Assembly (NCBI RefSeq): GCF_042453785.1
Contig: NC_091674.1
Location: forward strand, 25,312,001 to 25,376,000
Direction: 5' to 3'
DNA: 64,000 nt
From: Malus domestica
Taxonomy: Eukaryota > Streptophyta > Magnoliopsida > Rosales > Rosaceae
Shown: in pieces, positions 1,870 through 64,000 of the stretch
Position numbering within the stretch: the first letter of the stretch is position 1
How the letters are laid out: every line of letters starts with the position of its first letter
Translations under genes and position numbers: made by a program
Notes under the pieces: model-generated
The model's input: only the letters and a program-made list of their open reading frames with translations
Database searches by the model: none
Told to the model about the DNA's origin: nothing

Positions 1870-2512
1870 TAGGCCTGGCAAACGGGTCGTGTCAGTCGTG
1901 TTCGTGTCGTTTTCGTGTAACACATGTTATCTTAACGGGTCGTGTCGTGTCACACCCGTTATCTTAACGGGTCCTTAACAGGTCGTGTCACTTTACCCAA
2001 CGGGTAAAGTGACCCGACCCGTTATGACCCGTTATGACCCGTTAAGAAAAATATATTTTTTTTCTTAAATTTGCACATACCACACATTGCCACATAAATA
2101 TTATTTCAAAACATTAAAACACATTTGTCGTTTAAGTACTACATCTACACTCGAAAATAAGAGCCTAATAAAAAAATAATACATACACTACTAATCTATT
2201 ACAAATTTTAAATGTGCAAGGATATGCAAAATGAAACAGTTTTTGTTTTCAAGGTTGTGAAATCTTTCTCAAAAGTTTAAACCTCAATTTACAAAATCCT
2301 CGATTTACATCGATCATCATGAAATTGCATTGGAACTTTGGCTTGATCTATTGCCTTCAAGAGTTATGTTGATGATGCTTTCAGTAAGGTTTTCCACGTC
2401 ATAACTATCTTCTGCATAAACTAAGCATAGAAAAACCAAACATTAAAAATCATTCAAATTATGAGAAGTTTACCAAAATAATTATGAAAAAAAATAAAAC
2501 AATAGTACTATA

Positions 2513-5500
2513 CCATACTTTTATTAAGTATAAACATAAGATTTTGTGGTATCCACTAGTGTAAATATTTTAAATTGAAGATCGAATTCAATCATTGTAT
2601 TCATATAAGGTCAAGGAGTGTAGTTGTAAAAAATCATCAAAATCGGAGTTAAATTAACCGTTAAATCGTGATTTTACGTTTATAACCGTCGAAAAGTTTT
2701 GTCCCGTTACGTGCTCTCTGAATGTTTGTTTTTTGCAATTTTTGGCGTATGCGATCTCGAAATATATACAAACATGTTTGACGGTTGGATCATTGAAACT
2801 AGTTTCGTAGAATGAGTATCCCATCAAAACAATAGATTCACTAATACTTAAGAGTTTATTCATACTTTTATTAAGTATAACATAAGATTTTGTGGTTTCC
2901 ACTAGTGTAAATATTTTAAATTGAAGATCGAATTCAATCATTGTATTCATATAAGGTCAAGGAGTGTAGTTGTAAAAAATCATCAAAATCGGAGTTAAAA
3001 TGACCGTTAAATCGTGATTTTTCGTTTATAACCGTCGAAACCTTTTGTCCCTTTACTTGATATCTGAATGTTTGTTTTTATGCAATTTTTGGCGTATGCA
3101 ATCTCGAAGTATATATAAACATGTTTGACGGTTGGATCATTGAAACTAGTTTCGTAGAATGAGTATCCCATCAAAACAATAGATTCACTAATACTTAATA
3201 GTTTATTCATACTTTTATTAAGTATAATATAAGATTTTGTGGTATCCACTACTGTAAATATTTTAAATTGAAGATCAAATTCAATCATTGTATTCATATA
3301 GGGTCAATGAGTGTGGTTGTAAAAAAACATCAAAATCAGACTCAAAATGACCGTTAAATCGTGATTTTTCGTTTATAACCGTCGAAAAGTTTTGTCCCGT
3401 TATTTGATCTCTGAATGTTTGTTTTTTGTAATTTTTGACGTATGCGATCTTGAAGTATATACAAACATGTTTGACAGTTGGATCTTTGAAACTAGTTTCG
3501 TAGAATGAGTATCTCATCAAAACAATAGATTCACTAATACGTAATAGTTTATTCATACTTTTATTAAGTATAATATAAGATTTTGTGGTTTCCACTAGTG
3601 TAAATATTTTAAATTGAAGATCGAATTCAATCATTGTATTCATATAAGGTCAAGGAGTGTAGCTGCAAAAAAATCATCAAAATCAGAGTTAAAATGACCG
3701 TTAAATCGTGATTTTTCTTTTTATAACCGTCGAAAAGTTTTGTCCCGTTAATTGATATCTGAATGTTTGTTTTTTGTAATTTTTGACTTATGTGATCTCG
3801 AAGTATATACAAACATGTTTGACGGTTGGATCTTTGAAACTAGTTTCGTAGAATGAGTATCCCATCAAAACAATAGATTCACTAATACTTAATAGTTTAT
3901 TCATACTTTTATTAAGTATAACATAAGATTTTGTGGTATCCACTAGTGTAAATATTTTAAATTGAAGATCGAATTCAATCATTGTATTCATATAAGGTCA
4001 AGGAGTGTAGTTGTAAAAAATCATCAAAATCGGAGTTAAATTAACCGTTAAATCGTGATTTTTCGTTTATAACCGTCGAAAAGTTTTGTCCCGTTACTTG
4101 CTCTCTGAATGTTTGTTTTTTGCAATTTTTGGCGTATGCGATCTCGAAATATATACAAACATGTTTGACGGTTGGATCATTGAAACTAGTTTCGTAGAAT
4201 GAGTATCCCATCAAAACAATAGATTCACTAATACTTAAGAGTTTATTCATACTTTTATTAAGTATAACATAAGATTTTGTGGTATCCACTAGTGTAAATA
4301 TTTTAAATTGAAGATCGAATTCAATCATTGTATTCATATAGGGTCAAGGAGTGTAGTTGTAAAAAATCATCAAAATCGGAGTTAAATTAACCGTTAAATC
4401 GTGATTTTTCGTTTATAACCGTCGAAATGTTTTGTCCCGTTACTTGATCTCTGAATGTTTGTTTTTTACAATTTTTGGTGTATGCGATCTCGAAGTATAT
4501 ATAAACATGTTTGACGGTTGGATCATTGAAACTAGTTTCGTAGAATGAGAATCCCATCAAAACAATAGATTCACTAATACTTAATAGTTTATTCATACTT
4601 TTATTAAGTATAATATAAGATTTTGTGGTATCCACTAGTGTAAATATTTTAAATTGAAGATCGAATTCAATCATTGTATTTATATAAGGTCAAGGAGTGT
4701 AGCTGCAAAAAATCATCAAAATCAGAGTTAAAATGACCGTTAAATCGTGATTTTTCTTTTTATAACCGTCGAAACGTTTTGTCCCATTAATTGATCTCTG
4801 AATGTTTTTTTTTTGTAATTTTTGACGTATGCGATCTCGAAGTATATACAAACATGTTTGACGGTTGGATCTTTGAAACTAGTTTTGTAGAATGAGTATC
4901 CCATCAAAACAATAGATTCACTAATACTTAATAGTTTATTCATACTTTTATTAAGTATAACATAAGATTTTGTGGTATCCACTAGTGTAAATATTTTAAA
5001 TTGAAGATCGAATTCATTACTTGTATTCATATAGGGTCAAGGAGTGTAGTTGTAAAAAATCATCAAAATCGGAGTTAAAATAACCGTTAAATAGTGATTT
5101 TTCGTTTATAACCGTCGAAAACTTTTGTCCCATTACTTGATCTCTGAATGTTTGTTTTTTGCAATTTTTGGCGTATGCGATCTCAAAGTATATACAAACA
5201 TGTTTGACGGTTGGATCATTGAAACTAGTTTTGTAGAATGAGTATCCCATCAAAACAATAGATTCACTAATACTTAAGAGTTTATTCATACTTTTATTAA
5301 GTATAACATAAGATTTTGTGGTATCCACTAGTGTAAATATTTTAAATTGAAGATCGAATTCAATCATTGTATTCATATAGGGTCAAGGAGTGTAGTTGTA
5401 AAAAATCATCAAAATCGGAGTTAAATTAACCGTTAAATCGTGATTTTTCGTTTATAACCGTCGAAATGTTTTGTCCCGTTACTTGATCTCTGAATGTTTG

Positions 5501-8023
5501 TTTTTTACAATTTTTGGTGTATGCGATCTCGAAGTATATATAAACATGTTTGACGGTTGGATCATTGAAACTAGTTTCGTAGAATGAGTATCCCATCAAA
5601 ACAATAGATTCACTAATACTTAATAGTTTATTCATACTTTTATTAAGTATAATATAAGATTTTGTGGTATCCACTACTGTAAATATTTTAAATTGAAGAT
5701 CAAATTCAATCATTGTATTCATATAGGGTCAATGAGTGTGGTTGTAAAAAAACATCAAAATCAGACTCAAAATGACCGTTAAATCGTGATTTTTCGTTTA
5801 TAACCGTCGAAAAGTTTTGTCCCGTTATTTGATCTCTGAATGTTTGTTTTTTGTAATTTTTGACGTATGCGATCTTGAAGTATATACAAACATGTTTGAC
5901 AGTTGGATCTTTGAAACTAGTTTCGTAGAATGAGTATCTCATCAAAACAATAGATTCACTAATACGTAATAGTTTATTCATACTTTTATTAAGTATAATA
6001 TAAGATTTTGTGGTTTCCACTAGTGTAAATATTTTAAATTGAAGATCGAATTCAATCATTGTATTCATATAAGGTCAAGGAGTGTAGCTGCAAAAAATCA
6101 TCAAAATCAGAGTTAAAATGACCGTTAAATCGTGATTTTTCTTTTTATAACCGTCGAAAAGTTTTGTCCCGTTAATTGATATCTGAATGTTTGTTTTTTG
6201 TAATTTTTGACTTATGTGATCTCGAAGTATATACAAACATGTTTGACGGTTGGATCTTTGAAACTAGTTTCGTAGAATGAGTATCCCATCAAAACAATAG
6301 ATTCACTAATACTTAATAGTTTATTCATACTTTTATTAAGTATAACATAAGATTTTGTGGTATCCACTAGTGTAAATATTTTAAATTGAAGATCGAATTC
6401 AATCATTGTATTCATATAAGGTCAAGGAGTGTAGTTGTAAAAAATCATCAAAATCGGAGTTAAATTAACCGTTAAATCGTGATTTTTCGTTTATAACCGT
6501 CGAAAAGTTTTGTCCCGTTACTTGCTCTCTGAATGTTTGTTTTTTGCAATTTTTGGCGTATGCGATCTCGAAATATATACAAACATGTTTGACGGTTGGA
6601 TCATTGAAACTAGTTTCGTAGAATGAGTATCCCATCAAAACAATAGATTCACTAATACTTAAGAGTTTATTCATACTTTTATTAAGTATAACATAAGATT
6701 TTGTGGTATCCACTAGTGTAAATATTTTAAATTGAAGATCGAATTCAATCATTGTATTCATATAGGGTCAAGGAGTGTAGTTGTAAAAAATCATCAAAAT
6801 CGGAGTTAAATTAACCGTTAAATCGTGATTTTTCGTTTATAACCGTCGAAATGTTTTGTCCCGTTACTTGATCTCTGAATGTTTGTTTTTTACAATTTTT
6901 GGTGTATGCGATCTCGAAGTATATATAAACATGTTTGACGGTTGGATCATTGAAACTAGTTTCGTAGAATGAGTATCCCATCAAAACAATAGATTCACTA
7001 ATACTTAATAGTTTATTCATACTTTTATTAAGTATAATATAAGATTTTGTGGTATCCACTAGTGTAAATATTTTAAATTGAAGATCGAATTCAATCATTG
7101 TATTTATATAAGGTCAAGGAGTGTAGCTGCAAAAAATCATCAAAATCAGAGTTAAAATGACCGTTAAATCGTGATTTTTCTTTTTATAACCGTCGAAAAG
7201 TTTTGTCCCGTTAATTGATCTTTGAATGTTTTTTTTTTTGTAATTTTTGACGTATGCGATCTCGAAGTATATACAAACATGTTTGACGGTTGGATCTTTG
7301 AAACTAGTTTTGTAGAATGAGTATCCCATCAAAACAATAGATTCACTAATACTTAATAGTTTATTCATACTTTTATTAAGTATAACATAAGATTTTGTGG
7401 TATCCACTAGTGTAAATATTTTAAATTGAAGATCGAATTCATTACTTGTATTCATATAGGGTCAAGGAGTGTAGTTGTAAAAAATCATCAAAATCGGAGT
7501 TAAAATAACCGTTAAATAGTGATTTTTCGTTTATAACCGTCGAAAACTTTTGTCCCATTACTTGATCTCTGAATGTTTGTTTTTTGCAATTTTTGGCGTA
7601 TGCGATCTCAAAGTATATACAAACATGTTTGACGGTTGGATCATTGAAACTAGTTTTGTAGAATGAGTATCCCATCAAAACAATAGATTCACTAATACTT
7701 AAGAGTTTATTCATACTTTTATTAAGTATAACATAAGATTTTGTGGTATCCACTAGTGTAAATATTTTAAATTGAAGATCGAATTCAATCATTGTATTCA
7801 TATAGGGTCAAGGAGTGTGGTTGTAAAAAATAATCAAAATCGGAGTTAAAATGACCGTTAAATCGTGATTTTTCGTTTATAACCGTAAAAACGTTTTGTC
7901 CCGTTACTTGCTCTCTGAATGTTTGTTTTTTTGCAATTTTTGGCGTATGCGATCTCGAAGTATATACAAACATGTTTGACGGTTGGATCGTTGAAATTAG
8001 TTTCGTATAATTCGTATCCCATG
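2513..8023. repeat. 346-bp tandem repeat array with 7-unit higher-order repeat
   Basis: About 16 head-to-tail copies of a unit of 346-348 bp. Landmarks such as ACATGTTTGACGGTTGGATC and CACTAGTGTAAATATTTTAA recur at that spacing. The block around 3105-5425 recurs almost base for base at 5530-7850, an offset of 2425 bp or exactly seven units, so a recent duplication created a higher-order repeat. Each unit carries a minus-strand ORF of 60-120 codons beginning MNTMIEFDLQFKIFT. The ORFs change length with single indels, so I treat them as by-products of the repeat. The array lies wholly inside the hAT-type element. Confidence 0.92.
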
Positions 8024-8039
8024 AAGTTCAATGGTGTGT

Positions 8040-8335
8040 GTGTGTATATATATATATATTTATTTATTAAGTAGATTTAAATCTATTTATTTTGTATGTA
8101 TAATTATTATAGTTTTTAGGGGTATAAAATTTAATATATATATATATATATATAAAATTATTATAGTTAATATTTTGGGTATAATTATTATAGTATATAT
8201 AATTATTATAATTATTATAGTTAATTTAATATATATATACATATATATATATAATTATTATAGTTTTTAGGGGTATAAAATTGTTAAATTAATATATATA
8301 TATAATTATTATAGTCTTTTTTTAGGGTTATAGGT
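8040..8335. repeat. AT-rich simple-sequence zone
   Basis: Several (TA)n tracts alternate with repeats of a core reading ATAATTATTATAGT and GGGGTATAAAATT. This separates the 346-bp array from the right subterminal region of the hAT-type element. No coding potential. Confidence 0.85.
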
Positions 8336-30824: not shown

Positions 30825-31216
30825 AGGCTTTTTAGTCAAAATGCTCCTTGAGATTTGCATAATACATAACTTTAGTCCTTGAGATTTAAAATCAATAGAA
30901 GTGGTCCCTGAGATTGTCCACCATCCATTATTTTGGTCATTCCGTTAAAAAACTCCATTAAGTTGAGGGTATAACACATAACTTCGATCCCTGAGATTTG
31001 CATAACATATAATTTTGGTATTTGAGATTTGCATAACACATAACTTTGGTCCTTGAGATTGTCAACCATCCATCATTTTGATCCTTCCATTAAAAAGCTC
31101 AAGACCACTTAACGAAGTTTTTTTAATGGAATGACCAAAATAATGGATGGTGAACAATCTTAGGGACCAAAGTTATGTGTTATGAAAATCTCAAAGACCA
31201 TTTTGGCTAAAAAGCC
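30825..31216. mobile_element. hAT-type foldback MITE, copy 1, in RGLG leader intron
   Basis: The ends AGGCTTTTTAGTCAAAATG and CATTTTGGCTAAAAAGCC are inverted, and the arms extend through GTCCCTGAGATTGTCCACC and its complement. Flanks AATTAGCT and AATTAACT form an 8-bp target duplication with one mismatch. Confidence 0.75.
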
Positions 31217-31267
31217 AATTAACTAAATCAATTATCCCGTTCGATTCAAATATGAACATATCATATA

Positions 31268-31616
31268 AGGTTTTTTATTCAAAATGATCCCATAACTCCT
31301 CGTTTTTGTCCCTGACAATGAAAATCGATAAACGTGGTTCCTGAGTTTGTCCATAGTAAATCATTTTGGTTTTTCCGTGAAAAAGCTATCAATATTCTCG
31401 TTAAATTTTCACTTGGACGACTACGTGATCACTTTTTTAAAGGTATTTTTTGTCAAACCAACCCCTCTATTTAACGAGAATATTGACAAATTTTTCACAG
31501 AATGACCAAAATGATTTATAGTGTACAAATTCAAAAACCACTTTTATTGATTTTCATTGTCAAGGAACAAAAAGAAGAGTTATACCAATCTCAAAGACTA
31601 TTTTGCTAAAAAGCCT
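31268..31616. mobile_element. hAT-type foldback MITE, copy 2, in RGLG leader intron
   Basis: Ends AGGTTTTTTATTCAAAATG and the complement of CTATTTTGCTAAAAAGCCT. It is flanked by the perfect 8-bp repeat ATCATATA (31260-31267 and 31617-31624). It is related to copy 1 but more diverged; only 51 bp separate the two. Confidence 0.8.
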
Positions 31617-47552: not shown

Positions 47553-47918
47553 TGTTTGTACCATACTTAGGGCCTCTGTATTTAGATCTCGTATAAATAC
47601 TCAGGGGACTCAAATGTAATTATGTAATAAAGGAAGGGGCAAATATGTAATAAGTGAGGAGCTCTTATTCTATAAAAGGACCCCTCACTCTCCTTATTAA
47701 GGGAGGCCAATTCTTAGGTCTGACTCTCACCCTCAGAAGCCTCACTCTCATTACAGAGGCTCTCTCATTCCTTCACAATCCTATCCGAGAAATACAATAT
47801 CAGTGTGGACATAGCCCAAACATTGGGGTGAACCACGATACATCTTGTGTTATTTACTTTCTTGCAGATTTACTGTCGGATTTACGTTGTTCTAAGACCT
47901 CTCTCGTTTTGTGCATCA
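47553..47918 (+). repeat. LTR a of gene-capturing element
   Basis: Starts TGTTTGTACCATACTTAGGG and ends GTGCATCA (the end could lie 3 bases later). A TATAAA box is in TTCTATAAAAGGACCCC near 47672. The second LTR shares GTAATTATGTAATAAAGGA and TGGGGTGAACCACGATACAT. Confidence 0.85.
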
Positions 47919-47923
47919 ACATT

Positions 47924-47941
47924 TGGCGCCGTCTGTAGGAA
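47924..47941 (+). promoter_or_regulatory. Primer-binding site of gene-capturing element
   Basis: TGGCGCCGTCTGTAGGAA shortly after LTR a; the same site with GTGGGAA is at 60109. The first bases match a tRNA 3' end (CCA complement). I do not assign the tRNA. Confidence 0.75.
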
Positions 47942-47989
47942 ACGACACGAAAAGCTGTGTCGGTTCTCTCTCATTTTGCACCTCCACCG

Positions 47990-49805
47990 TGAAGGATTAT
48001 TTTGTGAAAACATGTTCATTTAAGCAACATCAATAAGCATGCAATTAACAATTAAAGGCGGAATCATGCTTGCATGCACTTAAAAACAAAACATTACCCA
48101 TGAAATTCAAAGCCTAGTAGATTGGTGAACCAAAACTCAACTCAAAACAAAGTGAGTTGAAATTTATACCTTTGTAGATTCCTCTTTGCATAAGCAAAGG
48201 CTAATCACCCAAAGAGAGGGCCTTCATTCCTTGCATCTTAAATCTATGGATTTGGATGGAAGAATAGGTTTCTCCAAGTTCCCAAAATTGAGAACCTCTA
48301 AGTCTCTTCACCAAGGAGAGATTGGAGAAGAAATGAGTGACCTTGGAGTAGTGGGATTGCAAGATGCACCCCCAAGGTGGCCGGCCTCTTTAGAGAGAAA
48401 TGGAGAGACATGTTCTCTCCAATTTTCTCCAAAACAAACCCTTATGAATTTTAGGCTATAAAGTCATATTTATACCTTTATTCATTTGAGTGGCAAACTT
48501 GTAAATAAGTCCAAGTTCACTACCCTTAGCATCATGGCCGGCCCTAGAGTATTTTTGGGCTAATTAGGCCTTTGTGAATCATTATTCATTAAGTTGTCAT
48601 ACAACTTAAGTCAATGGGCTTGACGTTCAAAGCCCATTGGGCCTTAATGTCCAAAACTATCCCGAGGTCTTTAACGAACTTATTCGTTTGATTAATTAAC
48701 ATATTAATTAATCCTTTCCATAAATAAATGATTAAACCATTCAATCATTCTTACTCATCTCCATTGTTTCTCCAATCTCCTCCTTACACGGTGTGCGATC
48801 CATTAGGTTCCTTTTAGCGAGGCAGTGGGCGATTAAAACCATTTTACATCGATTGTGAATTGAAACTTACTTTCAATTCTCCCTTTAGTGATTACACACG
48901 TTTAGGGCTTCCACAAACCATGAGTGACACCTTGCAGCATATCATGGTTACCCAAGCTAATCAGAAGAGGTAGAGAAAACCTATTCAGTTTGGGATTACA
49001 AATGCAATACGGTCTTTCTCTAATACAATACTCTTGACCACATTGTTTGGTTTGATAATTTATTTATTCATGTCTACTATCCAATGTGATTCGTGTGCTT
49101 ATATGATTACCTTGAATGTGATTTGGAACGTTTTCCTAAATCTCATTCATACTTTGGCCAAAGATTCTTAATCATATCATAGAGTATTCTCCCTCAAACA
49201 GTTTGAAGGTTAGAGATCCCTTGTTGCGCATTCACTTGCCTCCATGACTAAGTGGCTTAACCCCAACGATGCCGTGGACACTCCAATGGAATGACGTTTG
49301 ACATAATCAAAGATCAAGGACTTAACCACAAGACAACTGTGATGCCTCAGGTCAAAGGACTACTTTGCATTATCCCAACCATGAGTTCTCATGTGACATG
49401 AGTATGAGAACTCTTCGTTGATCGCGTTCAGTGAACTCATTCTCTACTGAGCACTTACGTACTTGTCTTGATGTCACACACACCAATGACTCGAGACTAG
49501 TCACTCTCCCTGAGAGAAGACATAGCACGTACCGATCTTGACGGACCGTCAATGCCCAATTGGCAATCCTATGATCAGGAACATTTAGGATGTGTCTACG
49601 AAAGAATGGTCTCATGAATCTAACTTCATTAGATTACATTCTCCCAATCACATATTCCTTGGACTTTATCGTTTAAGCATATAACATTTATATGAGACGG
49701 CTCAAACAATAATCTTTGCCTTTTATAGTTAAACTAGATTAGTTTAACATGTGAAATGTCCGTAAAGTATCATCATATGATTGGATTTAGGGCACATTTC
49801 CAACA
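47990..49805 (-). repeat. 3' LTR of copia element
   Basis: 1816 bp. Contains GTTTGATTAATTAACATATT and a GGCCGGCC motif. Same length as its partner at 55973. Confidence 0.93.
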
Positions 49806-49820
49806 ATCTCCCACTTGCAC
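49806..49820 (-). promoter_or_regulatory. Polypurine tract of copia element
   Basis: On the minus strand GTGCAAGTGGGAGAT directly precedes the 3' LTR (TGTTGGAA), the usual plant copia arrangement. Confidence 0.8.
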
Positions 49821-49954
49821 TAGAGCCAATCAGCTTGGTCATCAGTGATGATACCTCTTATGTAGTCATTTCATAAATGGCTGAGTAGTAGGCCTAGGCA
49901 ATGGATATCTATATGTTATCCATAGAAGCAACCTTGAGAATAACGACGTCACCA

Positions 49955-50197
49955 TTATACATGATTCTCAATCATGTGGTTCGGTCTCTCATATGAGTTC
50001 GGATCTTGATGAGACCTTGATTCCCTGGCTTGAGCTATCGCCCCATTAGTGTCATACACTTTCTGGTTGGAACCGAATAGAGAGTTCATAAATGAACTTT
50101 CCCATCCAAACAACATTGTTGCAAACTTCTTTATGGCAATATATTTTGCATTCATAATGGAACACACTAAAGTCATTACTTTAATGTTTCCATCCAA
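49955..50197 (-). pseudogene. Copia RNase H remnant
   Basis: 80 codons with SIMNAKYIAIKKFATMLFGW then DTNGAIAQARESRSHQ, matching the copia RNase H blocks that end in NGAIAQAKEPRSHQ. Catalytic context is degraded and both ends are lost. Confidence 0.8.
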
Positions 50198-50819
50198 ATA
50201 TCTCTTTAGTCATAATAAAGAGATATCCGTTTATCTCTTCATTCATAATGAAGAAACATCCAATGATGGATTAGATTCATAATCTAATACATTTACGCTT
50301 CCATTACGTTACTCTAATTCTTCCTCGATCTTTGAGGAATCTATCCTTCAGTATTTCTTAAATACTTAAGGACTCACTTGACAGTTGCCATGGTTCTGAT
50401 CCTGGGCTTACACTGATATCGTCTTGTACCGTTCTAGGTACAACTCATATCAATATTTTTCATACAATATGAAATACATAAATCCCCTTTATGCGTATGC
50501 ATAAAGGATTCTATTTACGCATTATTTCTTTGGGAGTCAAAGAGTACGTTCTCTTTGAGAAGAGCAACTTCTTAGTCTCACTAGAGTTGTCCTTCTAATT
50601 GAAGTTTATCATCATATGAGAAACTTCCTTGCATCCATTGTCTATTATCAGGGATTGATATAATCCAATTATATCATGAAATATATCATTATAAATTTCC
50701 ATCCCATGTATATAGACTATGTCTCCCACATACATTCTATCTTTATAGAACGTTTAAAGTCATAACTTTAACGAAGAAGTATTCTTTTCATTTCCAAAAT
50801 TAATATATCATATATATAT

Positions 50820-50881
50820 TCATATATATCACATATATATTCATATATATCACATATATATATATATATATATATATATAC
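50820..50881. repeat. (TA)n and CATATATAT simple repeat
   Basis: Three copies of a CATATATATTCATATATAT-like unit followed by a pure TA run, inside the copia interior. Confidence 0.9.
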
Positions 50882-51180
50882 AAATTTAGGAATATGATTA
50901 ACTCCCACTAATCTTTTGTAAACCTAGTAAACAAAAGATTCATTTACATCTTTATGAGAAATCAAACGATTTGACCTTTCTCTCATAAGACGCTTATAGC
51001 TCCCGCTAGCTTGCTAAGATTCATGATGGATGGATCTCTACAACTTACATGTCTTGTGATTTATAGTTTTAGACATATATTATCAAGACTATCTTAATAA
51101 TGGTTTCGGAAACCCATATTATGTCCAAACATTGAATCACCATTTAGTTGTAGCTAGCAATCTTCGAATTAATTGAAACT

Positions 51181-51475
51181 AAGACTACGTCAAAAATGGT
51201 TCCTTCAAAGTCAACCATTCTCTTTGATTGTAGTCACCTTAAGCTACCAATTAGCTATGAAGGTTTCATTATTTCGAGTCAAGTGGTACTTTACCATTTC
51301 CTTGAGTATATATCATATATATACACTCATTGTAGTCATAAGGATTTTCATTCTTAGTTCTTTCGAATTAAGAGGTGCAACTCTATGACTTAGTCATAAA
51401 GTTCAAAAAACCATTCAACTGAGACGGTTTATAAATCCTTATCGACTACCTTGGAGCTTTTGGTATAGGAACTAG
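51181..51475 (-). pseudogene. Copia reverse transcriptase remnant
   Basis: Minus-strand reading gives WELVPIPKAPR, then after frame changes and stops GYNQREWLTLKEPF, corresponding to the N-terminal copia RT blocks (WxLVxxPKG and GYxQxEGIDFxETF). It lies between the integrase and RNase H relics. Confidence 0.6.
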
Positions 51476-52099
51476 GTTGTTATATTTGTTGATTATTATC
51501 TTGTCTCTCAAAGAACCATTCTTTGAGTTCTATCCCTCATTCATTTGCTCTTAGGCAAATCACATTGTAGGATTACAATGAACTACCCAACAAAACAACA
51601 TTTGTTAGTTGGTTTATAGAAGTGATATCCAAAAGTTAATTTAAGGATATCCTTAAGATAATTCTCAAACAAATATTGCTTATTGGCACACAACCCCAAA
51701 TCTTAACATGTTTTAAGATTTGTCTTTCTTTCCAACTACATCTTATGGAGTCATGAAAATATTGGAAGATCTTCTAATTTACAATCATATTGTTTTAGAA
51801 GTATATATCCTATATATATGGGTAATAGATAATATCTAACGAACTAAATCTTATTCGAGTTCGTTCTTCTCCTAATGGAGAAATCCATTATCTTATGAAG
51901 CTTCTTTCCTTGATATCTTTCAAGGAGACTCATCTAAAGTGTTTCTTTTCCTTGGATCAAATCTAAGGAGGTAAATACTTTAGACGTCTTACTCATCAAC
52001 TTACATTTCTTGAATTCTTTGAAACCTTTTGCAAATTATTCGGACTTGTGTTTATTCAAAATAAACTATAGTCCAACCGAGAGTGATCTTCGGTGAATG

Positions 52100-52336
52100 T
52101 CATACAACATGAGTAGTATTATGTTGTGGACAAGTGCCACTAACATCTAAGTGAATTAACCTCAACAACTTTGTGATTCTTTCTTCTTTCCAAAAGAATA
52201 AAGATTCGAACATTTCGCCTCTATACAATTTTAACAAGAAGGTATTGGATCCGGATCTAACGATCCAAAGCATCCATCTTTCACCAACTTGTAACTTATG
52301 TTTTAGAGGTATCACAACTGAGTTGGGATTAGTCAC
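52100..52336 (-). pseudogene. Copia GAG-pre-integrase/integrase remnant
   Basis: Contains ERITKLLRLIHLDVSGTCP, matching the start of the copia integrase core (RAxxLLxLIHxDVCGP). The first catalytic aspartate is kept, and the sequence then degrades. Confidence 0.7.
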
Positions 52337-55300
52337 TACCTTGCAACCTTTTGGGTTTTAAGCATCATTATATTCTAAACAGTTAACACTACCATATCAT
52401 CTCTACTATAGAGACAATCAATTAGATTACCATAATCCAATCATTGATTAATAAAGAACAATGTTTTGTCAAACAAAACATTCATCCATCTCTACTATAG
52501 TGACGGAATTAAATTCCTTAAAATTGGAATGTAAAGACAATCTTTGGTTTTTCCAATTTCTTTGGTAGTTCATATGAGGAAGTAAGTACTATCTGCTTTC
52601 GCAAAGATCTATATTTTATTCACGTTCCGAATGTGAAGCACCTTTTCCTTCTCTCATATATCTTCTACTTCTTATTAGTCACACTTTTACAACGATTGTA
52701 AAACATAGTTACTAATACGGAATCAAGCATTCAAGTAGAAGAACCAACTGTTTTGAACTATTCAAGAACAATTTACAACACCTTCGAAAGGTGTGTTCTT
52801 GACACTTGCAAGACATTTCTTGCAAATACCCCTTCCAACGTCCATCCTTTCATTAAGAAAGTTTGTTCCCTTGGAGTTAATTTTATCTTCTACATTTGAC
52901 TTCTCCTTTGACTACAATAGTCATGGTCCCTAAACTCCCACTATCTCTCTTGAAACTTATTTCAATTGTGTTGTACACATCAAACATTTTGGAGAGCATG
53001 TGGTTATTGTTCACTACATAGTTTACAATAAACTTAGTGAACCATTAGGATAGGGACACTTAGGTGAAGTCCTTGCCTAGTTTCCGTCTCGTTAAGTGTT
53101 TTATCACTTCAACACTCAATGATTCAAAATCATCATAAGTCCATGTTAATGGACTATTTTTGTCAACCAACCATTATGTTCTAAACATAATTACAAACTT
53201 TCAAGAGTTGTACAAGGCAACTCTTATTTCTTCATACAACAAATTGTAAGTGAAGAATCATGGCACATAAAGTGTCCATGCCCTTGTGCTTTCTTCCTAA
53301 GTTCCTTGTTCATGTAACAAAGAAACAAGCACTAATGTTTGCATTGATTAAGGGTTGTTCAAAGCAACTCCTATTTCTTCATACAACAAATTGTAATTGA
53401 AGAATTATGACATTAAAAGTGTTGTCCTCTTTATGAAAGACTTTATCTAACATATTCTTCTAATGATACATTATCAATAGGAAGATTGTGAGGAAGAGAC
53501 TACTTAGGTACATCTACAAGCCATTAAAGACAATTTATGGTTTTGTAGTACCAAGTACGGAAACTAAAGCTTTCGGCTTTTATTTGTCAAGTGTTGGATA
53601 GCGTTTGCAAATATATTGGTAAACAAATATATAACGAATATAAATTGATTGATTTTAAGCCATTTGATTTGGGTCTTTAAATCAAATAGCACCACCCACT
53701 ATTTTTGGCAAATTCCATATCCCTCATTGGAATTCGAGAGTTTTGGAGGAAACTCTTAGTAGGGTATGGGAGACTCACTATTACCAAGCCCACCTCAGAA
53801 TTATATCATGTTGGCTAGCGTTAATAATAATGAGAGAGTACGCTTACTCATTTGCATCTCTTGCAAGTACCCATCTAATTTAGCCTCTAGAGAATGATGC
53901 CTCAGAATTATATCATGTTGGCGTCATTGCACTTAGTTAAGTCATTCCCACCATGCCTAGTTCGTGTAGGGGTTCAAGCAGAGCCTCATAATTATATCAT
54001 GTTGGCTAAACTCGTTGCCTACCTCACTTCATCATGTATGTATATAGAACTCCTCCTGAGTGTAAGCACGCACTTTGTACTCCCCCATTATAGGGTGAAG
54101 CCGGTGTACGAGTCACATACGATCGGAGCCTACCACGGTGGAAGGCCACGAAAGAGTGTTCAAAGCACTCTCACGCTTATCAACTTAATAATGGTTTGGT
54201 TGAGGGTTTTAGGTCTCATCACATATAAACATACATTTTAATCTCTATTAAAACAATTTTGGTCCTATTACAACTATTGGTCCATATGATTGTTTTAGTT
54301 GTATATTATACTCCCACTATGCTTATAAAACGGTTTTTAAAGTAAGAGTATATGATACTACTAACATAACATTTGCATTCATTTGATGGACTATATAGTT
54401 GCCTTAGGGCCTTAGGATGACTATGAACCTTTGTTTAGATTCAACACGAGCCTTGTGTTGAATCTCGGTCTAGGGATGGTGATTGATTTTAGTTACGCGT
54501 TTAATCAAATTAAGGCGTGTTGTCTTAGGGGCGTTGGACCCAACTACTTCATTTTCATGCATATCATATAAAGCAAGAAAGAAGTACTTCAAAGTAAAGG
54601 TGAGCTTATGCTTATTACAACATTTGCATAAAACAAATTACTTTAAAGTAAAGAAGAGCTTATGCCCTTTTACAACATTTGATCAAATCAAATTACAACC
54701 AAAATCTAATCTACACATTCCCATGGTTCAAACAAATTTGAAACGGCCTTTCACATAGCTCAATTATATTAGGCTTAGGTTCATAATCACCCTTTAATTA
54801 ATTAACACTTTAACTAATTAAATTGAATGCAACATTTTCATTTGGTTTTTGTATCCATAAAATTGATTTAAATGGAGCTAAACAAAATGAAAATCCAATT
54901 CTCATTTAAAGAGACAAAACAATTTTGTTCTCTACTTAATTTGGGCCAATATGCAATAACCACAACTTTTGGGCCATAAAGCAAATAACCTCAACTTTTG
55001 GGCTATATTGCAAAACTTTTGGGGTCACTTTGTAAAGACACAAAAGTCCACTACTTCATGTAATTACACTAGAACCCAAAATTTAATCAATGCAAAAACT
55101 TCATTAAAGGAGCAAAACAATTTGTCCTTTAGCGTTTTTGGACCTAAACGTAAAAACGTAAACTTTTGGGCCAAAGTGCAAATACACAAAAGTATCAAAA
55201 CTTTATGTAATTGCATAAAAGCCCCAAAAGTACTCCCACTTGAGGGAGGGCCGGTTTTAGGAGAGAGGAAGGGAAAAAATTGAAGCCACAAAATTTGGAA

Positions 55301-55959
55301 ATTTTTTCAACTAAGTCATAAAGCCTTGCAAGTGGAATTTGGTTGTTGTGAATCATAAAACCATGCATGTGGTGTGTAAGGTGTGTAAGGTGTGTAAGTT
55401 GTGTAAGTCTTACACACCCATCACAATTTCTATCACCTTTCAAAATAAATGTTTTGGTGATAGAAAATTCACATCAATCAACACAAAACAAAGACTTTAT
55501 GAAATTAACCAAAACTTTGAATCAAAACATCAAACCTTTTTGTTCTTGGCAAAAATGTCAAGAACAATGAAGAACATCCATGAAAACCCATAAGAGCTCC
55601 ATGAACATTTTTCATCAAAAAACATCCCAAAACCATTTAAACTTTAGGGAAATAACATATAACCAAACTAGGGTACATAGGGGGTTCCAAAAGTCACTTT
55701 AAAACACTTTTAACAAGTCAAACAAGAACCCAAAAAATCACCCTTTGTATTTGGCCGAAAATTCCCAAAAACATGGCACCAAATTTTAGCTCCAATATTC
55801 ATGCTCATATGAACTACATCTACAACATTTGAGATGGCAAATTTTCTAACAAAATTTACATTCAAAGAAACAAGAATAAAGCTTGTAACAATTACAACTT
55901 TTAAATCACAAACTATGAACCACAAAACCCAAAAGGATTCACCAACTACTAGACCTAGG
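52337..55959 (-). other. Decayed gag and leader region of copia element
   Basis: No clear domain. Three copies of CCTCAGAATTATATCATGTT/CCTCATAATTATATCATGTT occur at 53790-54005, and about five GTGTGTAAGGT-type units lie near 55372-55410. This should be the gag and 5' leader on the minus strand; it is too damaged to read. Confidence 0.6.
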
Positions 55960-55970
55960 CTCTGATACCA
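55960..55970 (-). promoter_or_regulatory. Primer-binding site, initiator tRNA-Met type
   Basis: On the minus strand TGGTATCAGAG, continuing CCTAGG, two bases inside the 5' LTR. This is the standard plant copia primer site. Confidence 0.92.
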
Positions 55971-55972
55971 CT

Positions 55973-57788
55973 TGAAGGATTATTTTGTGAAAACATGTTC
56001 ATTTAAGCAACATCAATAAGCATGCAATTAACAATTAAAGGCGGAATCATGCTTGCATGCACTTAAAAACAAAACATTACCCATGAAATTCAAAGCCTAG
56101 TAGATTGGTGAACCAAAACTCAACTCAAAACAAAGTGAGTTGAAATTTATACCTTTGTAGATTCCTCTTTGCATAAGCAAAGGCTAATCACCCAAAGAGA
56201 GGGCCTTCATTCCTTGCATCTTAAATCTATGGATTTGGATGGAAGAATAGGTTTCTCCAAGTTCCCAAAATTGAGAACCTCTAAGTCTCTTCACCAAGGA
56301 GAGATTGGAGAAGAAATGAGTGACCTTGGAGTAGTGGGATTGCAAGATGCACCCCCAAGGTGGCCGACCTCTTTAGAGAGAAATGGAGAGACATGTTCTC
56401 TCCAATTTTCTCCAAAACAAACCCTTATGAATTTTAGGCTATAAAGTCATATTTATACCTTTATTCATTTGAGTGGCAAACTTGTAAATAAGTCCAAGTT
56501 CACTACCCTTAGCATCATGGCCGGCCCTAGGGTATTTTTGGGCTAATTAGGCCTTTGTGAATCATTATTCATTAAGTTGTCATACAACTTAAGTCAATGG
56601 GCTTGACGTTCAAAGCCCATTGGGCCTTAATGTCCAAAACTATCCCGAGGTCTTTAACGAACTTATTCGTTTGATTAATTAACATATTAATTAATCCTTT
56701 CCATAAATAAATGATTAAACCATTCAATCATTCTTACTCATCTTCATTGTTTCTCCAATCTCCTCCTTACACGGTGTGCGATCCATTAGGTTCCTTTTAG
56801 CGAGGCAGTGGGCGATTAAAACCATTTTACATCGATTGTGAATTGAAACTTACTTTCAATTCTCCCTTTAGTGATTACACACGTTTAGGGCTTCCACAAA
56901 CCATGAGTGACACCTTGCAGCATATCATGGTTACCCAAGCTAATCAGAAGAGGTAGAGAAAACCTATTCAGTTTGGGATTACAAATGCAATACGGTCTTT
57001 CTCTAATACAATACTCTTAACCACATTGTTTGGTTTGATAGTTTATTTATTCATGTCTACTATCCAATGTGATTCGTGTGCTTATATGATTACCTTGAAT
57101 GTGATTTGGAACGTTTTCCTAAATCTCATTCATACTTTGGCCAAAGATTCTTAATCATATCATAGAGTATTCTCCCTCAAACAGTTTGAAGGTTAGAGAT
57201 CCCTTGTTGCGCATTCACTTGCCTCCATGACTAAGTGGCTTAACCCCAACGATGCCGTGGACACTCCAATGGAATGACGTTTGACATAATCAAAGATCAA
57301 GGACTTAACCACAAGACAACTGTGATGCCTCAGGTCAAAGGACTACTTTGCATTATCCCAACCATGAGTTCTCATGTGACATGAGTATGAGAACTCTTCG
57401 TTGATCGCGTTCAGTGAACTCATTCTCTACTGAGCACTTACGTACTTGTCTTGATGTCACACACACCAATGACTCGAGACTAGTCACTCTCCCTGAGAGA
57501 AGACATAGCACGTACCGATCTTGACGGACCGTCAATGCCCAATTGGCAATCCTATGATCAGGAACATTTAGGATGTGTCTACGAAAGAATGGTCTCATGA
57601 ATCTAACTTTATTAGATTACATTCTCCCAATCACATATTCCTTGGACTTTATCGTTTAAGCATATAACATTTATATGAGACGGCTCAAACAATAATCTTT
57701 GCCTTTTATAGTTAAACTAGATTAGTTTAACATGTGAAATGTCCGTAAAGTATCATCATATGATTGGATTTAGGGCACATTTCCAACA
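55973..57788 (-). repeat. 5' LTR of copia element
   Basis: 1816 bp; differs from 47990-49805 at about six positions that I noticed (for example G/A at GGCCGGCC versus GGCCGACC). Confidence 0.93.
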
Positions 57789-57853
57789 CACCGTGAATCT
57801 GCAAAATTTGCAGAAACCCAAGAACTAAACACCAACAGAATCACACACAAACG

Positions 57854-58075
57854 ATGGCTCTTACTCCTGAGTGGAAAACTCTCACTAAGGCTTTCTCAGG
57901 ACTTGGAGTTGTTGAGAAGGCACTAGTAGCAACACTGGGAAAATCGTATCCTGAGGAAAGGCAACCCTTCAGGAAAACAACTCCCCACTTTTTCAAGGTA
58001 GATGAACGTTCTTTTGAGCGCTGGGATGATCACCATGTCAAGCTTCTCAAGCATGAGTTCTTGCGTTTTAAGAAA
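57854..58075 (+). pseudogene. Captured annexin fragment (annexin D4-like, N-terminus)
   Basis: About 74 codons from an ATG: MALTPEWKTLTKAFSGLG, then EKALVATLGKSYPEERQPFR, then FFKVDERSFERWDDHHVKLL. This matches the N-terminal repeat of plant annexin D4/D8 (VDExALxxTLGKS, FRK, HxVxxLKxEFxRF). The calcium-binding loop and remaining repeats are absent. The frame is intact but ends in unrelated sequence. It is sense to the retroelement, with no intron. Confidence 0.75.
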
Positions 58076-58120
58076 CCTAAAAATCCAAAACTTTGGAGAA
58101 CCCCAAGAAAACCAAAAGCC

Positions 58121-58303
58121 ATGGACTCGGGCTCCAGGAACTGGCCTCCAATCATGGCCTTTAATTTTCTTATTATCCTCACGATCATGCCCTTCTTGCT
58201 CGCCCAGCCAACCACCGCAGCTTCGGCGTCGGCCTTCGACTCCTGCAACGGCGTCGGCATCCGACTCCTGCAACGGCGTCTTCCTGCAACAGTTTGTGTT
58301 ATG
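58121..58303 (+). pseudogene. Captured signal-peptide fragment, perhaps COBRA-like
   Basis: Starts ATG at 58121 and gives a hydrophobic signal (MAFNFLIILTIMPFLLAQP) followed by FDSCNGV. That combination resembles the start of COBRA-like GPI-anchored wall proteins (CNGVFLxY). A 21-bp stretch around CGACTCCTGCAACGGCGTC is duplicated in tandem. The match is short and the identity tentative. Confidence 0.45.
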
Positions 58304-58375
58304 TTGTAAGAGCCTTGAATGGAGCAGAAAACCGAATGGGGGGGATGGGAAACCTCAGATCCGATGAACTAAAGT

Positions 58376-58740
58376 ATGGCGGAGCTTTCGAAGATATCAT
58401 ATCCAAGAAAGGAAAAGGCAGCCATAGCTTTATCCACCGATGTAAAGAGAATAGTAGGCGACCTGGACAAGGAGTCCTTCATATCCCCCATCTCCAAGCT
58501 TATTGGGGAGTCCAAGTATCTCCAGAACAACCCACCCAAGCTGATCCATCAAGAGCACCTAGCCGTCAAGCACGTCTTCGATTCCTTGCTTCACCATAAC
58601 ACCACTATAGGCCCAAACACGTGACCTACTCCCCCGGCGGAGGCAACGTTATTGTGGAGTACCCGGGAATTGTTCTTAGGAAGATCTTGTCCTTCGTTGG
58701 CTGTCACACGGATGTCGTCACTGCTAATCCCAATGACTAG
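58376..58740 (+). pseudogene. Captured acetylornithine deacetylase fragment
   Basis: N-terminal third of the plant M20-family enzyme: GDLDKESFISPISKLIGESK, YLQNNPPKLIHQEHLAVKHV, then after a frame change HVTYSPGGGNVIVEYPG and KILSFVGCHTDVVTANPND ending in a stop. The metal-site motif normally reads GxHxDVV; here it is GCHTDVV. One frameshift and one stop make it non-functional. Sense strand, no intron. Confidence 0.85.
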
Positions 58741-58753
58741 GAACCCGCGCTGC

Positions 58754-59052
58754 CATGGAGCGTCAAGAGCAGGCCAAACAACTCTTCACCCGCTGCCTCA
58801 ATCTCGGCATCTCTGCTCTTCGCTCCGATCTAGCCGCTATTGATGTCATCAAGCTTGTCGTTAGGGAATTAGAAACCGATCCTTTCTTCAACTCTGGCCG
58901 TGCATCAACTCTCACTGCGAAAGGGACAGTTGAGATGGAATCCAGGATGCGGCGCCGTTTTGGGATTAACCACGGTTAAGAATCTCGTTTCACTCGCCTG
59001 CCTTGTCATGGACAAATCACCTCACTCCTACCTCGCATTTTCCGGCTCCGAA
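58754..59052 (+). pseudogene. Captured isoaspartyl peptidase/L-asparaginase fragment
   Basis: Starts ERQEQAKQLFTRCLNLGI, then VRELETDPFFNSGR, LTAKGTVEMES, and after a frame change LTTVKNLVSLACLVMDKSPH and SYLAFSGSE. This is the N-terminal half of the plant Ntn-hydrolase type asparaginase. The catalytic threonine lies further C-terminal and is absent. Sense strand. Confidence 0.85.
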
Positions 59053-59102
59053 GTTATTACCTTCACAAACTGGATCCACACTGTACAGGAAAAGCAACAA
59101 AG

Positions 59103-59330
59103 ATGGTAGACTTTGCTAGGGTTCAGAAGGAGCTTCAGGAATGCAGCAGAGACATCGAGTGCTCTGGCATCAAAGTCATCCCCAAAAGCGAAGCCATTCT
59201 TGCCCGTTTAATCGGAACAATTCCCGGCCCATTTGGTACTCCTTAGGAGGGCGGCACTTTCCAGATCGACATCGCATTGCCAGATGCGTACCCTTTTGAG
59301 CCTCCCAAAATGCAGTTTACGACCAAAGTT
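59103..59330 (+). pseudogene. Captured ubiquitin-conjugating enzyme fragment (UBC27-like)
   Basis: Starts at its own ATG: MVDFARVQKELQECSRDIE, SGIKVIPKSEAILARLIG, TIPGPFGTP, a stop in place of the usual Y, then [20 protein letters not shown] and KMQFTTKV. The catalytic cysteine and C-terminal UBA domain of UBC27 are absent. Sense strand, no intron. Confidence 0.87.
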
Positions 59331-59727
59331 CAGAACAGAGACAGAGAGAAAAGCAGAAAAGAAAGGTGAAAAGAAAATGGAAAAGAGGAAAGAAGAAAAG
59401 CAAAAAATCTTCCTATTATTATGATTCATTTTGTCTGTCAGGTGAAGAGACAGAGAGAGTGCGGTGGGAAAGTAAAAGCAAAGCAGAAAACGAAAGCAAA
59501 AGCAAAGCAGAAAAGAAAAGCAAAAGCAAAAGCAACGTGCCAACGATCAGCAACTGTCGAAGCTTTTGTGTTGAAACCTTTGTTTTGAATGATGTAATTT
59601 ATTTTTCTTATCTTTCGCAGATATCTGTATAACCCCATCAGAGGGTAAAAAAAAACATAAATAAAAAAGAGCCATATGCCCAATATTTAAAAAAGGGCTG
59701 GAAAGTTATGTGGAGGGCGAAGACCCA
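59331..59727 (+). repeat. A/G-rich tail and polypurine zone of first unit
   Basis: Repeats of AAAAGCAAAAGC and GAAAAGAAAAGC, then CCCCATCAGAGGGTAAAAA and GTTATGTGGAGGGCGAAG before LTR b. The second unit has the same tail at 63135-63505, so this part belongs to the element itself. Confidence 0.8.
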
Positions 59728-60103
59728 TGTTTATACCATACTTAGGGCTTTCTTATTTAGATCTCGTATAAATACTTGAGGGACTCAAATGTAATTATGT
59801 AATAAAGGAAGAAGCAAATATGTAATAAGTAAGGAGCCCTAATTCTATAAAAGGGACTCCTCACCCTCACAATTGGAGAGGCCTTACTCTCACCCTCAGA
59901 AGCCAATTCTTAGGCCATGGAAGGGCTCTCTCACCCTCAGAAGCTCTCTCCATCTCTCTCCCTCACAAACAGAGAAATACAAATATCAATGTAGACGTAG
60001 CCCAAATATTGGGGTGAACCACGATACATCTTGTGTTATTTACATTTCTTGCAGATTTACGGTCGGATTTACGTTTTTCCAAGACCTCTGGTTTTTTGCA
60101 TCA
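59728..60103 (+). repeat. LTR b, shared by first and second units
   Basis: Starts TGTTTATACCATACTTAGGG and ends TTTGCATCA. It follows a polypurine zone, as a 3' LTR should, and is followed by a primer-binding site at 60109, as a 5' LTR should. It is therefore the middle LTR of an LTR-body-LTR-body array. Confidence 0.85.
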
Positions 60104-60440
60104 ACATTTGGCGCCGTCTGTGGGAAACGACACGGAAAGCTGTGTTGGTTCTCTTTCATTTTTTACCTCCGCCGTGGATTTGCAAAATCTGCAAAATCCA
60201 AGAAACCAAACACCTACAGAATGGTAGAGGACGACCCGGATATTTGGGGGAGATAAGGACCCAAATCTGCAAATCCACCGAGACAGAACCTCTCTCTTTG
60301 TCTATCTCTTTCTCTCTCCCCCTCATATTAGTATACTGCAGCCACAAACCAGGTACTTCCATAATCCTGGGCCGTGACTTCACAATGGAGACCAAGTATC
60401 AGACCACAGAGGCCGACTCGGCTTCGCTATCTGCGCCAAG

Positions 60441-63138
<2,698 letters not shown>

Positions 63139-63538
63139 AGTAAAAAGCAAAAGTAAAAGAGAAAGGTGCGGTGGAAAAGAGAACGACAAAAGAAAAAGAG
63201 GGTGGTGCAAGCTGTCACCAATGAGTCCTATTCGTCGGTACAAACGAGGCAAGCTTTAAAGTTGCAGAGAAAACACAAAAGCAAAAGAAAGGTGCGGTGG
63301 AAAAGAGAAAAGCAAAAGCAAGGAATAAACACCCACACTGTAAAAGCAAGGAATAAACACCCCACCAGAATGATGTGATTTACTTTTCTTGTTTTTGAAT
63401 GATGCGATTTATTTTTCGGAGACAATCTGTATAAACCCCATCAGAGGGTTAAAAAAAAAAACGGCAAGCCTAAAATAATGGGCTGGAATGTTATGTGGAG
63501 GGCGAATGCCTATATGCCCAAAAGAGCCAGGCCCTCTA

Positions 63539-63710
63539 TTATCACCAACCAGGTGATTAAAAGTACGCCCAGTACTCCAAAATTATTCGGCACACTGCCT
63601 CTATTATCACCAACCAGGTGATCAAAAGTACGCCCAGTACTCCAAAATTATTCGGCAACCTGCCACTATTATCACCAACCAGGTGATCAAAAGTACGCCC
63701 AGTACTTCAA
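63539..63710. repeat. Three tandem copies of a 60-bp unit
   Basis: Each unit has CTATTATCACCAACCAGGTG, then AAAAGTACGCCCAGTACT and CAAAATTATTCGGCA. The copies differ at a few positions; the third is shortened. Confidence 0.92.
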
Positions 63711-63866
63711 ATTATACATGAGCATTACTCATGTCAATCATACATAAACATTCATAAGCATCACTCATATCAATCATACATAAACATTCATGAGCATCAT
63801 TCATGTCAACATTCATGAGCATCACTCATGTCAGTCAACATAAACATTCATGAGCATCACTCATGT
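63711..63866. repeat. Tandem repeats built on CATGAGCATCACTCATGTCA
   Basis: About five copies of a 30-40 bp unit with CATAAACATTCATGAGCATC; lengths vary by small deletions. Confidence 0.88.
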
Positions 63867-64000
63867 CAATCAGCTTCAAAAGCTTCATTTACAGAGCTCT
63901 AGCTTTAAAAGCTTCATTTACAGAGTTCTAGCTTCAAAAGCTTCATTTACAGAGCTCTAGCTTCAAAAACTTCATTTACAAAAGCTCTAGCTTCAAAATC
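63867..64000. repeat. Tandem repeats of a 32-bp AGCTTCAAAAGCTTCATTTAC unit
   Basis: At least four copies of a unit with CTTCAAAAGCTTCATTT and ACAGAGCTCTAG run to the window edge, so the array continues beyond it. Confidence 0.9.

Follow-up and report, generated by a model that had tools for sequence, protein, structure and literature searches.

Spliced host-gene pieces as replaceable cargo in a non-autonomous LTR retroelement family of apple

A 64,000-nt stretch of the Malus domestica genome (C14:25312001-25376000, hereafter the window) contains two members, elements A and B, of a real and recently mobile family of non-autonomous LTR retroelements that carries replaceable cargo derived from host mRNA. 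Element A holds a string of five pieces from unrelated host genes, and other members hold other strings. We infer a capture route via splicing, in which host 5′ exons are joined to acceptor sites within element copies that lie in introns and the product is then reverse transcribed; taken as a whole, this is the explanation that we favour and consider probable.

Results

Anatomy of elements A and B

Comparison of sequences from the window and its flank resolved element A as an LTR retroelement with a younger element in its leader and element B, flanked by the target-site duplication ACCCA, nested in its tail (Table 1). The 3′ LTR of element A lies beyond the window, at 68568 in continued window numbering, and is followed by ATTAA. 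It is 92.8% identical to the 5′ LTR over 333 nt, whereas the 5′ LTR and the LTR of element B are 77% identical (286/367). Past element B we found ACCCA and then, once more, the family motif and the minisatellites of element A. The 3′ LTR of element B occupies 64751-67001 in the same numbering and is split by an LTR-like insertion with the duplication GTCTA. The preliminary description had placed the string of host-gene pieces between two related LTRs; the string is real, with donors for all five pieces, but its anatomy needed correcting, since the true 3′ LTR of element A and its ATTAA were found beyond the window and the right-hand LTR chosen earlier is thus that of element B. Two readings of 59728-60106, as the 3′ LTR of element A and as an LTR common to a tandem pair, were rejected because ACCCA and the continuing tail of A follow the 3′ LTR of B and the true 3′ LTR of A lies further on.

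The insert at 47990-57788, which had been called a nested copia element, is indeed an LTR element, as its LTRs and the CACCG duplication attest; the copia label is unproven, since its interior has a single stop-to-stop frame of at least 110 aa. At 9.8 kb, this insert is close to the apple element HODOR, given as 9,716 bp in the part of PMC13334179 available, the likeness being one of length alone. Elsewhere in the window, a satellite-like repeat of 346 bp forms a head-to-tail array of about 16 copies (2379-8124), mostly more than 90% identical and less so at the edges, and 31016-31583 holds two close inverted repeats, 81 and 115 bp long, with 89 and 83% complementarity.

Table 1. Features of elements A and B in window coordinates. 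Gene names of element A pieces other than asparaginase are those that we take to apply.
Feature	Position	Strand	Basis or donor
Left target-site duplication of element A, ATTAA	47548..47552	+	Same 5 bases after A 3′ LTR beyond the window
Element A 5′ LTR, TG...CA	47553..47921	+	LTR comparison
Element A primer-binding-site-like stretch	47924..47941	+	Sequence; same stretch or variants there in 15 tested elements
Element A leader, part 1	47942..47989	+	Final 5 bases are the duplication CACCG
Younger LTR element in element A leader	47990..57788	-	LTRs 47990-49805 and 55973-57788, 99.67% identical; duplication CACCG
Element A leader, part 2	57789..57828	+	Opens with the copied CACCG
Annexin piece: 5′UTR, exon 1 and exon 2 without the 742-bp intron	57829..58072	+	Donor C2:34804314-34805287
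COBRA-like piece beginning at the predicted transcription start; contains a 25-bp internal duplication	58079..58286	+	Donor C16:12137232-12137407
Short stretch, origin not assigned, also in L002	58287..58415	+	Sequence comparison
ArgE-like (acetylornithine deacetylase) piece, exon 1	58416..58741	+	Donor C16:35619443-35619784
Asparaginase / isoaspartyl peptidase piece, two exons without the 608-bp intron	58753..59053	+	Donor C15:5173086-5174019
UBC27-like piece, exons 1-2 without the 505-bp intron	59099..59330	+	Donor C14:23687738-23688477
Element A tail	59331..59722	+	Purine-rich stretch, 3′UTR-like stretch with A-run, family motif
Target-site duplication ACCCA, element B	59723..59727	+	Repeated after B 3′ LTR (in L030)
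Element B 5′ LTR	59728..60106	+	LTR comparison
Element B primer-binding-site-like stretch	60109..60126	+	Sequence
Leader of element B with its first cargo, as far as the N-terminal part of THI4	60127..60546	+	Sequence comparison
Solo LTR in element B, same kind as the element interrupting A	60552..62360	-	Duplication CAGTA at 60547-60551 and 62361-62365
Element B cargo: THI4 exon 1, PPR-like piece, HD-Zip-like piece, others	62363..63131	+	DNA matches, Pfam
Element B tail	63132..63490	+	Body comparison
Element B minisatellite stretch	63491..64000	+	Runs beyond the window to polypurine stretch and 3′ LTR

Cargo of elements A and B and its donors

A search for the donor of each piece, which had been proposed earlier as a check, was run at the DNA level against the apple's own genome (651 Mb, 19 contigs), and returned separate donors, far above chance, for all five pieces of element A: one on C2, one on C15, two on C16 and one elsewhere on C14. 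Identity to the donor was 95 and 96% for the two annexin exons, 92% for the COBRA-like piece, 87% for the ArgE-like piece, 94 and 83% for the two asparaginase exons, and 97 and 100% for those of UBC27. The names annexin, COBRA, ArgE and UBC27 are presumed. Among the segments of element A, that of asparaginase alone passed the Pfam cut-off (E 5.5e-11), while the annexin/COBRA and UBC27 segments were recovered neither by PDB sequence search (E 0.1) nor by Pfam (E 1), and the ArgE segment gave no more than chance-level matches in Pfam and PDB sequence searches.

All five pieces (5/5) lie in sense orientation, as had been described, and the three that span more than one exon all lack the intervening intron (3/3), from which we conclude that spliced RNA was captured. 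The claim that these are 5′ coding pieces fails for asparaginase, whose piece begins within exon 1 and is therefore not a 5′ end. In element B, the THI4 piece matches C11, with a paired copy on C3 (Pfam Thi4, 8e-26), and also occurs in L049 and L050. The PPR-like piece, named by eye, matches a gene on C15, and the HD-Zip-like piece, likewise named by eye, matches a C12 gene of which an 828-bp gap is absent in B, with two extra bases at the joint.

Several of the modules in element A recur at other loci. The ArgE and asparaginase pair is also found in L002, where the end of one LTR, a primer-site stretch, a polypurine stretch and the start of an LTR are all present, and UBC27 with a tail-like stretch is found in L037. 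The annexin piece occurs at three more places behind an LTR end and leader (92-93% identical), two of which are siblings (93% over 2.27 kb) while the third diverges downstream. By eye, a stretch below the comparison threshold is common to A, L002 and L027. In L002 and at the three annexin places, all of them LTR-associated, we saw neither pieces outside LTRs nor the chain without them.

A recently mobile family

A first look at the genome gave 5878 candidates, a rough indication of family size. We read 20 stretches around LTR matches; L012 and L013 proved to be one element, and L017 and L019 were single LTRs without a body. This collection left 17 further bodies, with different cargo strings, or 19 with elements A and B. 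The constant parts of the family are LTRs of about 380 bp, the primer-site stretch, a short leader, an A-rich tail, the minisatellite stretch and a polypurine stretch. Paired LTRs with 5-bp duplications were present in all 15 elements tested (10 exact, 5 matching at 4/5 bases), L012/L013 and L021 lying outside this test, and A and B are likewise paired. The LTRs of the tested elements measure about 335-390 bp and their spans 2.9-5.7 kb. LTR ends run from TG to CA, with point changes at one end in L015 and L016, and in 15/15 elements the primer-site stretch or a variant follows the first LTR and ACTTGGGGGACTAC or a variant precedes the last. For 13 of 14 elements, the two LTRs were each other's reciprocal nearest relatives, the exception being L023, where an adjacent extra LTR is nearer. 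At L023:1722-2462, two LTRs abut directly before the primer site.

The outer LTRs are identical in L028 (384/384) and L014 (336/336), and for 13 other elements, A and B included, a rate of 1.3e-8 per site per year, taken from the part of PMC5664825 available, gives ages of about 1.2-3.6 million years. L014 (1190-6799) also contains a third LTR, 85% identical, plus a second minisatellite stretch; since its outer LTRs are identical all the same, this composite seems to have moved as one unit. L028, which has close relatives on C3 and C5, differs in its tail: between its identical LTRs, the cargo passes without a break into a run of about 50 A, and the family motif follows at once (3213-4126).

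The tails compared mostly consist of a 3′UTR-like stretch followed by an A-run, which suggests, without proving, that the family tail was derived from the end of a polyadenylated mRNA.

Cargo survey and coding content

At a Pfam threshold of E 0.01, a scan of 228 of the 234 sense segments of at least 42 aa gave matches to 26 families, none of them of retroelements: gag, protease, reverse transcriptase and integrase were all absent, in line with the earlier statement that element A has no gag or pol. Nor did 150 of 221 antisense segments return gag or pol in Pfam. Both are presumably supplied by another element.

Host cargo was found in 14 of the 19 bodies, 13 of them through an assigned Pfam match at E 0.01 (A, B, L009, L010, L011, L012, L014, L015, L016, L020, L022, L024 and L027) and L028 through DNA similarity to a gene-like locus on C15. 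The sense cargo includes AAA_34 and SPRY (L009), an aluminium-induced protein (L010), GDA1_CD39 (L011), IF3 (L012), RINGv and AAA (L014), SHMT just under the cut-off (L016), Rpb8 (L020), TPR (L022) and H+-pyrophosphatase (L024), with K-box, GRAS, NTF2 and pectinesterase also matched among the family's sense segments but not assigned to a body. L018, L021, L023, L025 and L026 had no host Pfam match among the singly scanned segments; L018 and L025 are host-protein-like by eye. The proposition that all cargo is in sense fails across the family, as FH2 in L015 and GST in L027 are antisense and a minority of pieces is thus reversed. A weak antisense UPF0715 match was seen in the same 150 segments, and a third antisense piece, in L016, looked PPR-like by eye but lacked a Pfam match. 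A 190-nt gap in the L028 piece, which we take to be phosphoglucose-isomerase-like, was considered as a lost intron and rejected, since L047 (C15) and a sibling element, L046, show it to be an internal deletion.

These results confirm that pieces of several unrelated host genes occur within one LTR element, in a family whose copies differ in their pieces. Cargo could instead have been captured once or rarely, long ago, with variety arising mainly from recombination between element RNAs and from decay. Shared modules are what this would lead one to expect (annexin at four places, ArgE with asparaginase in A and L002, UBC27 in A and L037, THI4 in B, L049 and L050), as are the close relatives of L028. 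However, the middle bodies of the 19 elements lack blastn similarity at E 1e-6, where only the leader start and tail end are common, up to some 350 nt, and the donor identities of the A pieces spread from 83 to 100%; we consider such old and infrequent capture very unlikely. As the copies read differ in their strings, the family may be shuffling exons naturally.

Piece ends and the route of capture

The next donor exons of annexin, UBC27, THI4 and ArgE were located with short protein motifs, and 3′ ends could be placed for eight pieces, a small sample selected by which searches returned; the match of element B to C11:32542804 was left out of the count, as its last 10 nt are ambiguous. Five of the eight stop no more than 3 nt from the point where a donor exon ends. 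The annexin piece reaches 0-2 nt past the end of donor exon 2, UBC27 exactly at the exon end in L037 (2 nt short in A), THI4 0-1 nt and ArgE 0-3 nt past it, and the PPR-like piece in L056 within 1 nt of a GT that resembles an exon end, this one of the five being inferred from the GT alone. The COBRA, asparaginase and HD-Zip-like pieces end inside exons. If exon ends are assumed to occur once in every 200 nt, chance would bring a piece end into a 7-nt target in about 3.5% of cases, so that 5/8, and also 4/8, is far above chance.

Two further features of the pieces bear on the route. Counted by eye, the distance from the first base of the donor TATA box to the beginning of the piece is 33 nt for annexin and 30 nt for COBRA, as would be expected if reverse transcriptase had run to the RNA 5′ end, with the qualification that the annexin start is blurred by a leader that resembles the donor 5′UTR. 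In element B, THI4 exon 1 is joined to the PPR stretch directly after the CCCAG of that stretch, which is unbroken in L056 and in the gene; a cryptic acceptor used in splicing would leave such a joint.

Host introns of 742, 608 and 505 bp are absent at clean joints and the 828-bp gap at a less clean one (4/4). Capture at the DNA level, as in Pack-MULEs and Helitrons, or through genomic fragments joined by repair, is hard to reconcile with these losses and with the LTR, primer-site and polypurine anatomy and 5-bp duplications. The presence of pieces from several chromosomes in one string and the two antisense pieces found by Pfam would suit it, yet we regard it as extremely improbable.

We favour the following sequence of events. 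A copy of the element would sit in a host intron, and the host promoter would drive a transcript whose 5′ exons are joined by splicing to a sequence of the copy that resembles an acceptor. The chimeric RNA would then be reverse transcribed, the enzyme reaching its 5′ end or switching earlier, and landing on a normal element RNA in its leader. Strings could grow through several such rounds, together with switching between element RNAs, and we count in favour of this the occurrence of element A modules apart from one another, in L002 and L037. Against it count the 3-nt overlap at the ArgE/asparaginase joint, with no AG before the ArgE end, the THI4 and asparaginase pieces that begin within coding sequence, the antisense pieces, the three ends inside exons, and the 5/19 bodies in which no host origin was shown; nor did a chimeric transcript or an autonomous partner come to light.

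The close rival is plain template switching, in which host mRNAs are packaged by chance together with element RNA and reverse transcriptase jumps at random places or short matches, so that intronic copies are not needed; this is the usual proposal for abnormal template switching in plant LTR elements in the part of PMC13317346 available. It would equally yield spliced and mostly sense pieces, it predicts ends inside exons such as the three of eight observed, and it agrees with the short overlaps seen in A where ArgE meets asparaginase and where UBC27 is joined on. The five of eight 3′ ends within 3 nt of exon ends and the two starts near a predicted transcription start count against it, and we judge this rival possible, though appreciably less probable than the splicing route. 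That 5′ transduction by exon trapping is the family's normal way of life, each round adding a host 5′ piece behind the leader, is a more tentative proposal, to which we would give a little less than even weight; if true, the family would be a self-renewing library of exon strings from many host genes.

Discussion

With host cargo shown in 14 of the 19 bodies read, and with outer LTRs identical in two copies, a single genome suffices to measure how fast capture proceeds, by which rules and from which donors. If the pieces truly end at splice sites, existing assemblies and long-read RNA data allow a test of the mechanism. Chimeric transcripts, small RNAs directed at host genes and false gene models may also arise from the family.

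Paired LTRs with 5-bp duplications and the primer-site and polypurine stretches place the family among LTR retroelements, and the lack of gag/pol domains in 228 sense and 150 antisense segments sets it apart from autonomous LTR retrotransposons. TRIMs do not accommodate it, as LTRs of about 335-390 bp are combined with spans of 2.9-5.7 kb. LARDs have a long non-coding interior that is conserved between copies, and the middle interior is not conserved across the 19 bodies. Pack-MULEs and Helitrons are DNA transposons in which one family captures gene pieces repeatedly. Repeated capture by one family is the likeness to our elements; the differences are that those are DNA transposons and that Pack-MULEs carry introns, as stated in the part of PMC4717578 available. 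In pepper, LTR retroduplication of NLR genes, mainly of one subgroup, likewise involved spliced host RNA in mostly non-autonomous elements, but the case is NLR-centred in the accessible part of the source (PMC5664825), whereas here we find strings of unrelated gene pieces. Among the matches listed from a mostly open-access literature, by titles and abstract openings, there was no LTR family from apple or its relatives that captures genes in this manner.

The nearest known cases are maize Bs1 and gene-carrying TRIMs such as soybean GmaRetroS15. Bs1 resembles the family in having spliced pieces of several host genes inside LTRs; as far as the available parts of the sources go, it is one LTR element with one cargo set, made of segments of three host genes (PMC13317346, PMC7264820), whereas our 19 bodies share no middle cargo (blastn E 1e-6). 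The gene-carrying TRIMs, as described in the accessible part of PMC4717578, are like the apple elements short and non-autonomous, with intron-free pieces (of three genes in one case) and 5-bp duplications; they amount to 30 elements in 7 of 289 subfamilies and measure 1.2-1.4 kb, while the apple family spans 2.9-5.7 kb, has a minisatellite stretch and carries host cargo in 14/19 bodies. The apple family works like Bs1 and the gene-carrying TRIMs, but most of its bodies read here, and not just a few, contain cargo, and there is a hint that capture proceeds by exon trapping.
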